Virus record (IMG/VR): IMGVR_UViG_3300035181_000401
Span: 1-64,000 of that record
Length of the DNA: 64,000 nt
Origin: a virus
Direction: 5' to 3' (one strand)
The number at the start of each line of letters is the position of its first letter. Within the stretch, counting starts at the first letter, position 1. Positions 1 to 4,505 of the stretch are shown piece after piece. The notes beneath the pieces are model-generated. The model saw nothing but the letters and a program-made list of their open reading frames with translations. It was not told the origin of the DNA and searched no databases. A program made the translations under genes and the position numbers.

Positions 1-24
1 CTTAACTGCTGGCACGAATTCAGT

Positions 25-100
25 TGGGGGTTAGCTCAGTTGGTAGAGCAACGGGTTTTGATCCCGTTGGTCGTAGGTTCGAGTCCTACACCCCTTGCCA
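25..100 (+). tRNA. tRNA-Gln (anticodon TTG)
   Basis: Cloverleaf with D arm at 34-49, anticodon stem ACGGG/CCCGT around a seven-base loop whose middle is TTG (58-60), T arm GTAGG/CCTAC with loop TTCGAGT, and an encoded CCA at 98-100. The first acceptor pair is weak (T-T), as is common in tRNA-Gln. It is the first of twelve clustered tRNA genes. Confidence 0.93.
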
Positions 101-106
101 AGATTT

Positions 107-183
107 GCCCTCATCGTCTAACTGGTTCAGGACGCCGGACTTTCAATCCGGGGATGCGAGTTCGATTCTCGCTGAGGGTGCCA
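107..183 (+). tRNA. tRNA-Glu (anticodon TTC)
   Basis: Acceptor GCCCTCA pairs with TGAGGGT, anticodon stem CCGGA/TCCGG holds loop CTTTCAA with anticodon TTC, the T arm has loop TTCGATT, and CCA is encoded at 181-183. Confidence 0.93.
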
Positions 184-438
184 AATTTGTCACTCGCCCG
201 AAACGAGAAACACGTGGCTGTGGAAACCGATGCATACGGACCACGGCAGTGAAAAGTCGGAATTGAAGTGTACGCAGAGGAAAGGCGTAGCACGCTCTCC
301 CCGCATCCGAGCCTGATTCGGTCGGCGAGGGTACAAGGCAAAGGGCTTTCTCGGGTGACAATCTTAGAGGACGTGGGTTCGGGCAACCGGGCCTACGAAG
401 TGACCTCCATCGGGGTGCAAAGCCCTGTCCAAACATTT
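184..438. other. gene-free stretch inside the tRNA cluster
   Basis: About 255 bases between tRNA-Glu and tRNA-Asp. I find no complete cloverleaf and no convincing reading frame with a ribosome binding site. A GGTTCGGGC motif near 377 recalls a T loop but its arms do not pair. It may hold a decayed tRNA or a small RNA; nothing can be assigned. Confidence 0.4.
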
Positions 439-514
439 GCCTCGTTAACTCAGCGGTCAGAGTGCTCCCCTGTCTAGGGAGAAGCCGCCAGTTCGATTCT
501 GGCACGGGGCGCCA
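439..514 (+). tRNA. tRNA-Asp (anticodon GTC)
   Basis: Acceptor GCCTCGT pairs with ACGGGGC, anticodon stem CTCCC/GGGAG with loop CTGTCTA (anticodon GTC), T loop TTCGATT, encoded CCA at 512-514. The next tRNA begins two bases later. Confidence 0.93.
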
Positions 515-515
515 T

Positions 516-589
516 CGGTTTCAAGCATTAAGGTGATGCAACTGGCTCTTACCCAGTAGAATGCGGTTCAATACCGTGGAGGCCGACCA
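516..589 (+). tRNA. tRNA-Lys (anticodon CTT)
   Basis: Acceptor CGGTTTC pairs with GAGGCCG, D arm GCAT/ATGC with GG in the loop, anticodon stem ACTGG/CCAGT with loop CTCTTAC (anticodon CTT), T loop TTCAATA, encoded CCA at 587-589. Confidence 0.9.
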
Positions 590-598
590 AAGATCAAT

Positions 599-677
599 TC
601 CGGTGAACCCGAGCAAGGTGCATGGGCCTGACTGTTAATCAGAGGTTAGGTTGGTTCGATTCCAACCTCCGGAGCCA
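599..677 (+). tRNA. tRNA-Asn (anticodon GTT)
   Basis: Acceptor TCCGGTG pairs with CTCCGGA apart from one T-T mismatch, anticodon loop CTGTTAA gives GTT, T arm GTTGG/CCAAC with loop TTCGATT, encoded CCA at 675-677. Position 8 is A instead of T and the D stem is only CCC/GGG, so the fold is somewhat irregular. Confidence 0.87.
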
Positions 678-683
678 AAATAC

Positions 684-770
684 GCGTGTCATGTTCCAAA
701 GGTGGGACAGGAGGCTGTAACCCTCCCGGCCTCTAGGCCATGCTAGGTTCGATCCCTAGGGCACGCACCA
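684..770 (+). tRNA. tRNA-Tyr (anticodon GTA)
   Basis: Acceptor GCGTGTC pairs with GGCACGC, anticodon stem GGAGG/CCTCC with loop CTGTAAC (GTA), a long variable arm as expected for bacterial tRNA-Tyr, T arm CTAGG/CCTAG, encoded CCA at 768-770. It is 87 bases long. Confidence 0.93.
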
Positions 771-842
771 AGTTTTCAAGGTGGGGACGTTAGAGGCTAG
801 TAAGTCCGGCCTCGGTCGAAAGACACTGTGCCACCACCTCTC

Positions 843-918
843 GGACGGGTAGCTCAGATAGTAGAGCACCGGATTGAAAATCCGGGTGTCGCTGGGGCAG
901 AGCCAGCCCCGTCCACCA
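843..918 (+). tRNA. tRNA-Phe (anticodon GAA) with abnormal elbow loops
   Basis: Acceptor GGACGGG pairs perfectly with CCCGTCC, anticodon stem CCGGA/TCCGG with loop TTGAAAA (GAA), encoded CCA at 916-918. The T stem GCTGG/CCAGC is intact but its loop is GGCAGAG, without the TTC found in every neighbour. The D loop AGATAGTA also lacks the GG pair. The two loops that normally dock together are thus both changed, so it may be non-functional, specially folded or doing another job. Confidence 0.85.
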
Positions 919-926
919 AAATTCAT

Positions 927-1003
927 GGGGTCGCATGTGCCAAGGGCGGCGAGGAAGGTTTGCACCTTTCCTGTGGTGAGTTCGATTCTCACCGGCTCCA
1001 CCA
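927..1003 (+). tRNA. tRNA-Ala (anticodon TGC)
   Basis: Acceptor GGGGTCG pairs with CGGCTCC (one G-T), anticodon stem GAAGG/CTTTC with loop TTTGCAC (TGC), T arm GTGAG/CTCAC with loop TTCGATT, encoded CCA at 1001-1003. Confidence 0.92.
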
Positions 1004-1010
1004 ATTCAGC

Positions 1011-1086
1011 GGGTGCCAATGTTCCAAGGCTGGCGAGCGAGGCTCCAAACCTTGCTGGCGCGGTTCGATTCCGTGGGTGCTTGCCA
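1011..1086 (+). tRNA. tRNA-Trp (anticodon CCA)
   Basis: D stem GTTC/GAGC, anticodon stem CGAGG/CCTTG with loop CTCCAAA (CCA), T arm CGCGG/CCGTG with loop TTCGATT, encoded CCA at 1084-1086. The acceptor stem relies on several G-T pairs. Confidence 0.88.
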
Positions 1087-1087
1087 A

Positions 1088-1175
1088 GGAAGAATGGCAG
1101 AGTGGTCTATTGCAGGACGGTGCTAACGTCCCGGGCGGCAACGCCCCGTAGGTTCGACTCCTACTTCTTCCGCCA
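1088..1175 (+). tRNA. tRNA-Ser (anticodon GCT)
   Basis: Acceptor GGAAGAA pairs with TTCTTCC, anticodon stem GGACG/CGTCC with loop GTGCTAA (GCT), a long variable arm typical of class II tRNAs, T arm GTAGG/CCTAC, encoded CCA at 1173-1175. Confidence 0.93.
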
Positions 1176-1180
1176 GATTT

Positions 1181-1257
1181 CAGGGTGTAATGTCAGTTGG
1201 TAGACGGCGAGCTTTGGAAGCTTGAGGCCGGTGGTTCGAGCCCACCCACCCTGACCA
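1181..1257 (+). tRNA. tRNA-Pro (anticodon TGG)
   Basis: Acceptor CAGGGTG pairs with CACCCTG, anticodon stem CGAGC/GCTTG with loop TTTGGAA (TGG), T loop TTCGAGC, encoded CCA at 1255-1257. Confidence 0.92.
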
Positions 1258-1267
1258 GATTTCTGTC

Positions 1268-1340
1268 GTGGCCCTAGTGTAATGGCGAGCACTCCGAGTT
1301 GTGACCTCGGCAGACGGGTTCGATTCCCACGGTCACCCCA
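1268..1340 (+). tRNA. tRNA-His (anticodon GTG), compact
   Basis: Anticodon stem CCGAG/CTCGG with loop TTGTGAC (GTG). The acceptor GTGGCC pairs with GGTCAC, followed by C and CCA (1338-1340), matching the C73 of tRNA-His. The T stem is short of two pairs, one acceptor base and position 9 appear to be missing, and a second CCA follows. The identity is clear although the fold is degenerate. Confidence 0.78.
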
Positions 1341-2956: not shown

Positions 2957-2984
2957 TGCTTTCAACTGATAGGAGCAGCCATAT

Positions 2985-4505
2985 ATGCCTGAAGCGAGCA
3001 CGCCACAGGGCGTAGACTCCACGGCGGCTCTCCAGCCCGATCAGGACGCCATTATCCCACGCATGAAGCTTGGTGAGCAAGGTGTCCTCGGCCTGAAGAC
3101 GAGCAACCGACGAATTCTAGAAGAGGCGCAAGCCGCCTTCCGGTTCCCGGCCTTCATCCAGACTGTTAACGAGATGCGCAACAACCCCACGGTTGGTGCT
3201 GCAATGAACGTCTACCGGATGATGATTTCCCGCGTGAAGTGGGATATCGAACCCCCCGCGAACGCAACAGAAACAGACAAGGCGCGAGCCGCCATTATCA
3301 AGACGATGATGGACGATATGGACCACTCGTGGTCTACGTTCATTGAAAGCGTCATCCCGTATCTCGAATATGGGTTTGCCATCAACGAAAAGGTCTACCG
3401 TCGTCGCCTCAAGCGAAACGGTTCTAAGTTCGATGACGGCTTGATTGGCCTCAAGAAGCTCGCCCCTCGAAGCCAAGAAACCATTGGTGGTTGGTGCTTT
3501 AGCCCGGACGGTCAAGAACTGCTCGCGGTTGAACAGAACCTCCGATATGTCGAACATGCCTATCTCTTCGCAGACCGCTTTGACGAGCGGGGTATGCTGA
3601 AGATTGACCGGGAAAAGATTCTCCTGTTCACGGCGAGCCCTACCAAGGGTAACCCGGAAGGCAATTCGATCTACAAGAACATCTACCTTGCGTTCAAGCA
3701 ACTCGCGTTGCTCCAGAATCAAGAACTCCTTGGCATCACCAAGGACGTGCAAGGTATCCTGAAGATCGCGATTCCGCCTCGCTACCTCGACCCGAATGCT
3801 TCCCCGGAAGATCAAGCGGTCGTCGCAGCGTTCCAGCAGATCATCGACAACTACAACGCGGGCACTCAACGGGGTCTTCTGGTCCCGAACATGATTGACC
3901 CGGAGACGAAGCAACCGCTGTTCACCTACGACCTCATGGAGTCGAAGGGTCTGGCGAAGTACGACACGGAGAGCGTGATCCGTCGCCTTCAAGGTGACAT
4001 CCTCTCTGCCCTGTCGGTGGACGTTCTGAAGCTTGGCTCAGACGGTTCCGGCTCGTTCTCCCTCGCGGAACAGAAGTCGTCGGTGCTCGCGCTCGCCATC
4101 GACTACCGTCTTCGTGAAATTGCTGAGGTTCTGAACAACGACCTGATGCGGCAATTGTACGAGCTTAACGGCTGGGATGCAAGCAACACAGCAAAGTTTG
4201 TGTACGCGGACATCGAAGACGTGAGCCTCGAAGAGTTCTCGAAGGCCATTCAACGCATCTTCTCGACAAGCGCCATTGAAGTTGACCGAGACGTTCTGAA
4301 CCGTGTGCGTCAGATCATGGGTATCCCGCTCAAGCCGGATGACGAACCTGTGGACAAGGACAACCTCCCCGCCACTCTCACTGGGCAATCCAGTGGTGCA
4401 GGGGCCGGAATGGAGGTAGGCACGACTGGCGAGGGCACCGCAAAGAACCCCGCCAAGAACAGCAAGCAGAACAAGTCGGACAACAACGCCAACAACTCTG
4501 CGTAA
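2985..4505 (+). CDS. portal protein
   Basis: Forms the dodecameric ring at the head vertex through which DNA passes. 506 residues, resembling the DUF935 (Mu gp29-like) portal family in length and in its central region (AYLFADRFDERG, SPTKGNPEGNS, LKLGSDGSGSFSLAEQ). The C terminus is a low-complexity Gly/Asn/Lys tail from about residue 460. It has a TAGGAG binding site and its own strong promoter. Its place between terminase and protease supports the call. Confidence 0.92.
   Translation: MPEASTPQGVDSTAALQPDQDAIIPRMKLGEQGVLGLKTSNRRILEEAQAAFRFPAFIQTVNEMRNNPTVGAAMNVYRMMISRVKWDIEPPANATETDKARAAIIKTMMDDMDHSWSTFIESVIPYLEYGFAINEKVYRRRLKRNGSKFDDGLIGLKKLAPRSQETIGGWCFSPDGQELLAVEQNLRYVEHAYLFADRFDERGMLKIDREKILLFTASPTKGNPEGNSIYKNIYLAFKQLALLQNQELLGITKDVQGILKIAIPPRYLDPNASPEDQAVVAAFQQIIDNYNAGTQRGLLVPNMIDPETKQPLFTYDLMESKGLAKYDTESVIRRLQGDILSALSVDVLKLGSDGSGSFSLAEQKSSVLALAIDYRLREIAEVLNNDLMRQLYELNGWDASNTAKFVYADIEDVSLEEFSKAIQRIFSTSAIEVDRDVLNRVRQIMGIPLKPDDEPVDKDNLPATLTGQSSGAGAGMEVGTTGEGTAKNPAKNSKQNKSDNNANNSA

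Follow-up and report, generated by a model that had tools for sequence, protein, structure and literature searches.

In the "specific purine trap", reportedly derived from suppressor-tRNA selections in E. coli by Doyon, Zagryadskaya, Steinberg and colleagues (2004), a purine at position 18 is said to be held between the 54-58 pair and the purine at position 57, and a G at position 55 reportedly requires an A at position 18. These selections of the Steinberg laboratory are said to have kept U54-A58 and to have concerned laboratory tRNAs, not natural phage genes. PMC7912444 lists two related papers of this laboratory, one of which is also listed in PMC13191261.

The TΨC loop is regarded as near-universal. 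The anatomy of the tRNA elbow is described in a review in which pseudouridine 55 (Ψ55) is called universally conserved (PMC4810234). tRNA-Pyl and mitochondrial tRNAs without GG/TΨC have lost either G19 and C56 or the whole contact between the D and T loops (PMC7609411). No paper on natural A18/G55 tRNAs was found in the literature searched, which does not imply that they are unpublished since most subscription papers were beyond reach.

The tRNA-Phe gene described here lies in a window of 64,000 bases, corresponding to bases 1-64000 of a virus record of 87,459 bases (G000). The last 127 bases of the record are identical to the first 127 bases of the window, and a second contig (L001, IMG/VR 3300035182) spans the junction. 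The genome is thus circular or terminally redundant with a size of about 87.3 kb. The gene belongs to a tRNA array (Table 1) that runs on across the ends of the record with tRNAs for Ile, Met, Leu and Thr and that is followed by the gene encoding the large subunit of the terminase. Among the 16 listed members of the array tRNA-Phe is the only one with a T loop other than TTC; the T loops of His, Leu, Met and Ile are listed with a shift of one or two bases, with TTC visible in each.

Table 1. Position and composition of the tRNA-Phe gene, its parts and the surrounding tRNA array in the window.
Feature	Position	Strand	Details
tRNA-Phe(GAA) gene, encoded CCA	843..918	+	Rfam RF00005, 54.9 bits; cloverleaf fold; missed by ARAGORN
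Acceptor stem of tRNA-Phe			7 bp, GGACGGG/CCCGTCC
D loop of tRNA-Phe, AGATAGTA	856..863	+	A14 G15 A16 U17 A18 G19 U20 A21
Anticodon GAA	876..878	+	standard loop TTGAAAA; sequence
T arm of tRNA-Phe	891..907	+	stem GCTGG/CCAGC, 5 bp
T loop GGCAGAG	896-902	+	G54 G55 C56 A57 G58 A59 G60; C56 (898) retained
tRNA array holding tRNA-Phe	1..1340	+	Gln, Glu, Asp, Lys, Asn, Tyr, Phe, Ala, Trp, Ser, Pro, His

The position of the gene, its unusual T loop and the D loop without GG had been noted in the initial annotation and were all confirmed in the sequence. The stems, which had been described as perfect, are intact according to the sequence, the Rfam match and the predicted fold: besides the acceptor and T stems also the D stem (4 bp) and the anticodon stem (5 bp) are paired throughout. 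The Rfam score clearly exceeds the gathering threshold of 29 bits, and the minimum-free-energy fold is a cloverleaf (-36.6 kcal/mol, z -3.7).

Compared with the canonical elbow (G18 and G19 in the D loop; U54, U55 and C56 in the T loop), G18, U54 and U55 are absent and G19 and C56 are present. With the numbering of the D loop set by comparison with canonical tRNA-Phe genes, A18 (860) takes the place of G18, and G19 (861) is retained. The pair 18·55 has changed from G·U to A·G and the pair 54·58 from U·A to G·G, both of them altered on both sides, and position 60 has become a purine. The outer elbow pair, the Watson-Crick pair G19-C56, is intact as far as the sequence tells. The gene therefore belongs to the A18-G55 elbow class as defined here (A18 and G55 together with G19 and C56) and, within it, to the GGCRGNR subclass (G54, G58 and a purine at position 60 in addition to A18/G55). 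The loss of the contact between the D and T loops, as initially proposed, proved to be wrong, since G19-C56 is kept and A18/G55 recurs together with G54/G58 as a matched set.

A sequencing error, which had been considered as a source of the odd loops, was ruled out: contig L001 matches the window base for base across all 5737 overlapping bases including the tRNA-Phe, which excludes a lone read error. An alternative register of the T arm that would hide a TTC was not detected, the minimum-free-energy fold having a 5-bp stem and a 7-nt loop. The motif GGCAGAG looks like the 3' half of a D arm, and 13 of 15 positions of the T arm are complementary to the anticodon arm of the tRNA-Lys (542-556). 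However, an origin by a single local copying event is an unnecessary assumption given the varied GGCRGNR loops in other tRNAs.

The scan of bacterial genomes with the body of the window tRNA-Phe, leaving the T loop free, revealed 13 Planctomycetota loci. Eleven of them carry G18 with U55 and two (L045, L048) carry A18 with G55, suggesting that positions 18 and 55 change together. No tRNA-Phe with the T loop GGCAGAG was found in the same collection of bacterial genomes.

A viral pattern scan with A18 and C56 fixed and position 55 free yielded 82 stretches. Among all loci gathered up to this point, 76 distinct A18 tRNAs were identified (five from bacterial loci), of which 70 have G55, two of these pairing weakly, and six have U55 (UUC). 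The T loops of the 70 A18/G55 sequences contain TGC (44), GGC (18), AGC (7) or CGC (1). In the reverse scan, which specified a GGCRG T loop and placed no constraint on position 18, A18 was found in 20 of 20 viral contigs, and the pattern combining G18, G55 and A58 gave two matches. The coordinated change of both loops, initially judged unlikely to arise by chance, is thus strongly supported by the relatives, in which A18 goes with G55 and GGCRG goes with A18.

Furthermore, a general cloverleaf finder detected 422 tRNA-like sequences in the gathered loci. In 58 of these sequences position 18 could not be assigned, and they were removed before clustering. The 334 representatives obtained at 80% identity comprise G18/U55 (204), A18/G55 (112), A18/U55 (7), G18/G55 (7) and G18/C55 (4). 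The association between positions 18 and 55 is pronounced (Fisher p 8e-70), although this value, like those from the shuffles below, overstates the independence of the sequences, which are related. Since the loci had partly been fetched for A18, the share of A18 does not represent a natural frequency, and it is the state of position 55 given position 18 that matters.

The seven A18/U55 representatives are exceptions to the rule that A18 goes with G55. Among the eight G18/G55 tRNAs present before clustering, seven have D loops (such as AGCAGGA or AATTAGGA) that are equally readable as A18 G19 G20; L134, which was fetched for G18/G55, is the clear case of a real G18/G55 tRNA. From at least 120 viral loci selected by a G18 tRNA the finder extracted 448 tRNA-like sequences. 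Among the loci listed (at least 120) no unambiguous G18 was found with G55, and the unambiguous A18 sequences have G55 in four of four cases; eight further sequences with G55 have no assignable position 18, five of them showing AG in the D loop and three looking spurious.

A second pattern of co-variation was detected within the T loop. In the 112 A18/G55 representatives the combinations at positions 54 and 58 are UA (84), GG (14), AA (7), AU (4), CC (2) and UG (1). The set UA/GG/AA/CC was thus observed 107 times compared to a shuffle mean of 79.9, and this number was reached in 0 of 10000 shuffles. Positions 54 and 60 are either both purines or both pyrimidines in 130 of 131 distinct sequences. 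The mutual information with position 54 is 0.81 for position 60 and 0.78 for position 58. A 54-60 purine-purine pair may therefore be an alternative to the 54-58 pair, as the letters fit either of them.

The GGC..G tRNAs amount to 23 distinct sequences from 20 loci, forming 16 clusters at 75% identity. The D loop contains AG in all 23, and CCA is encoded in 19 of them. They cover ten anticodons (GAA, TGT, TCC, GAT, CAT, TAC, TGC, GCC, GGG and TTC), and the window gene clusters with another viral tRNA-Phe (L108). In the viral and bacterial sets examined here the G54·G58 subclass was seen in viruses alone. Judging from these sequences the same swap extends to phage tRNAs with many different anticodons, and it probably had multiple origins.

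The missing call for the window gene in the ARAGORN output seems to reflect a general blind spot. ARAGORN recovered 150 of 150 tRNAs with a TTC loop, 111 of 114 with TGC and 13 of 21 with AGC, but only one of 23 with GGC. Consequently, swapped phage tRNAs are probably under-counted. The BLAST-matched cultured phages that were opened (Synechococcus phage S-SCSM2R, MT836342, Staphylococcus phage K, Tunturiibacter phage Tunturi_5, Sinorhizobium phage Phosso and Aeromonas phage AsFcp_4) have tRNAs of the G18 type with no G55 in the portions shown, and a few searches revealed no cultured phage with the swap.

The extent of the swap varies between arrays. Three contigs from phages of 131-225 kb (L121, L116, L090) have G55 in nearly all tRNAs found; the heavily converted arrays include L121 (9 of 10) and L116 (8 of 8 tRNAs found). 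Mixed arrays are common as well, as in L091 (4 of 14) and L129 (5 of 13).

The A18/G55 combination is not restricted to viruses. In 392 Planctomycetota genomes the scan for A18 with position 55 free detected five genes, all of them with G55, and the scan for G55 with position 18 free returned the identical five genes. Three of them encode a tRNA-Thr(GGT) in the neighbourhood Trp-...-Thr-Gly-Tyr-Thr, and at the one of these loci that was checked for proteins (L266) the neighbours include EF-Tu and NusG. The fifth gene is located in an array of 38 tRNAs (L264 3163-7643; G205:C138) on a contig that carries dprA, and most of the examined members of this array have G55 (L136).

With a pattern leaving positions 18 and 55 free, the tRNA-Thr(GGT) with A18/G55 was the sole Thr(GGT) gene matched in each of its three genomes, and in two further Planctomycetota genomes (G012, G013) a single tRNA-Phe was matched, which is of the A18/G55 type; "sole" and "single" refer here to the matches, since some letters are fixed in the patterns and the genomes are possibly incomplete. 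Where a cell relies on such a tRNA, the A18-G55 elbow must be able to support translation. None of the 392 Planctomycetota genomes showed the G54-G58 form. Being seen only in viruses, it is not covered by the bacterial evidence for function, which extends to A18-G55 in combination with U54-A58 and not to the full set.

Taking the intact stems, the matched letters and their recurrence into account, we consider it likely that the window gene encodes a functional phage tRNA-Phe with compensated alternative elbow contacts, and a working phage tRNA rather than a decoy or a relic appears to be the best reading of its sequence. The G18-Ψ55 pair would be replaced by A18-G55, the two positions of which co-vary, and the T54-A58 reverse-Hoogsteen pair presumably by G54-G58 (or G54-G60) with a purine at position 60, whereas the outer pair G19-C56 stays as read from the sequence. 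The L shape would thereby be kept and with it the charging, the delivery by EF-Tu and the decoding of UUC/UUU. Given the letters G54 and G55, neither m5U54 nor Ψ55 can be formed.

What brought the swap about is to be judged separately from this anatomy. Neutral compensatory drift, in which tolerated intermediates (A18/U55, G18/C55) lead to an equivalent set without any advantage, is quite conceivable, if short of probable. Such intermediates exist (seven and four representatives, respectively), and the frequent occurrence of mixed arrays fits the same idea. However, the GG class needs changes at positions 18, 54, 55, 58 and 60, yet its narrow motif GGCRGNR is shared by 16 clusters, which is more than unselected drift readily predicts, and the same applies to the near-complete conversion of some arrays.

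The conversion of these arrays could instead point to selection. Host factors that recognise the elbow or its modifications, such as TruB, TrmA and elbow- or T-arm-binding nucleases, might be unable to read phage tRNAs with the swap; we regard this escape as possible but rather unlikely. It would agree with the concentration of the swap in the arrays of some phages (L121, L116) and with the elimination of both modifiable uridines in the GG loop. A parallel may be seen in phage tRNAs that are proposed to evade host tRNases via mutations of the anticodon loop (PMC10264068); the changes of the anticodon-loop cleavage site that characterise such resistant tRNAs are absent from the window gene, the loop of which is ordinary. 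The defence nuclease Cas12a3 contacts the T arm, but it is described as touching the backbone and not the bases (PMC12851939). Furthermore, bacterial housekeeping tRNAs also have A18/G55 with no evident phage conflict, and in the window array the swap affects just one of the 16 listed tRNAs.

More speculative, and in our view unlikely, is the wider proposal that the combination of A18-G55, G54-G58 and a purine at position 60 is a repeated private elbow code. It would keep the L shape and remove the two uridines that are modified almost universally. The tRNAs would then be competent for translation but go unnoticed by host enzymes and defences reading the TΨC loop, and by annotation programs as well.

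The T loop of the window gene is far off the consensus, and two neighbours in the array, a tRNA-Ala and a split Met-like element, look degenerate, which might suggest a decaying or dead tRNA gene. This seems very improbable considering the perfect stems, the encoded CCA and the many other phages in which the loop class occurs together with a matching D loop.

The initial suggestion of a decoy for anticodon nucleases found no support, and, like a tRNA set aside from translation, it is highly improbable. Consensus letters of both the D and the T loop have indeed been altered together, and a precedent for a tRNA set aside from translation exists in the staphylococcal peptidoglycan tRNA-Gly, which is not used by the ribosome and has a partner enzyme. 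However, the anticodon loop of the window gene is ordinary and its G19-C56 pair is retained. In five Planctomycetota genomes, moreover, an A18/G55 tRNA is the sole gene matched for its anticodon.

T arms of tRNA genes commonly serve as integration sites. The T loop could have been altered so that integrases or recombination no longer target the gene, with the D loop changing in structural compensation; such a change at the DNA level has very little probability, as the matched D loop shows that it is the RNA that is preserved.

The initial annotation had named relatives with normal loops, together with reads showing a sequencing error, as findings that would speak against its reading. This applies only in part: distant phage tRNA-Phe genes are normal (L002, phage K), but the second contig has the same letters, and a search for a tRNA-Phe in close relatives that would show the ancestral loops gave none. 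Among relatives with an array the nearest is L005 (72% terminase identity); at least 11 tRNAs, but no tRNA-Phe, were found in it.

The arrays of both viruses also contain other putative RNAs. A structured spacer of about 250 nt between tRNA genes occurs in the window (184-438) and in L005 (3262-3509), the block GTGAAAAGTCGGAATT being identical in both. The L005 copy folds better than shuffled sequences (z -3.6), the window copy less markedly so (z -2.0), and an Rfam search revealed no convincing family. The spacer is thus a candidate for an unnamed phage RNA. A second spacer with a strong fold (z -4.7) was detected in the L005 array (2984-3184), with tRNA-like pieces recognisable by eye. A short hairpin RNA (z -1.8) lies between the tRNA-Tyr and the tRNA-Phe in the window (775-842). 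The tRNA-Ala(TGC) at 927-1003 has an odd D arm, is missed by ARAGORN and matches Rfam weakly as a tmRNA, below the cutoff. The Met-like (CAT) tRNA at L034 3595-3780 (G000 about 86594-86779) has, as read by eye, cloverleaf arms that are seemingly interrupted, with about 70 nt inserted in the D loop and about 40 nt in the T loop.

The natural recurrence of the swap provides evolutionary evidence that the pair 19-56 is kept and that 18-55 and 54-58/60 are exchangeable as sets. If the swapped tRNAs work, they can dispense with m5U54 and Ψ55, and the role of these modifications would become testable.

With tRNA-Pyl and the mitochondrial tRNAs the window gene shares the alteration of both the D-loop and the T-loop consensus, but unlike them it keeps G19-C56 and a standard cloverleaf (PMC7609411). 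The stems, the anticodon loop, G19 and C56 are shared with canonical bacterial and phage tRNA-Phe genes (L002, Burkholderia phage BcepSauron, Planctomycetaceae genes), and the L002 gene (record G009) is 86% identical to it over 73 nt. The canonical genes, however, have G18/U55 and U54/A58 where the window gene has A18/G55 and G54/G58.

The A18/G55 tRNAs with a TGCRANN loop (tRNA-Phe of the Planctomycetota loci L045 and L048, tRNA-Thr of L137 and L139 and tRNAs of many phages) share A18, G19, G55 and C56 with the window gene, but differ from it in keeping U54-A58 and mostly a pyrimidine at position 60. Its own class is represented by the GGCRGNR phage tRNAs (tRNA-Phe of L108, tRNA-Thr of L062, tRNA-Met of L071), which have A18, G19, G54, G55, C56, G58 and a purine at position 60 in common with it and differ in their anticodons and stems, L108 being the nearest by clustering. 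With respect to the specific purine trap, the letters of the window gene fit at positions 18, 55 and 57, whereas those at 54-58 are G-G instead of U-A. The rule that connects A18 with G55 in these natural genes agrees with the one reportedly obtained in the suppressor-tRNA selections.
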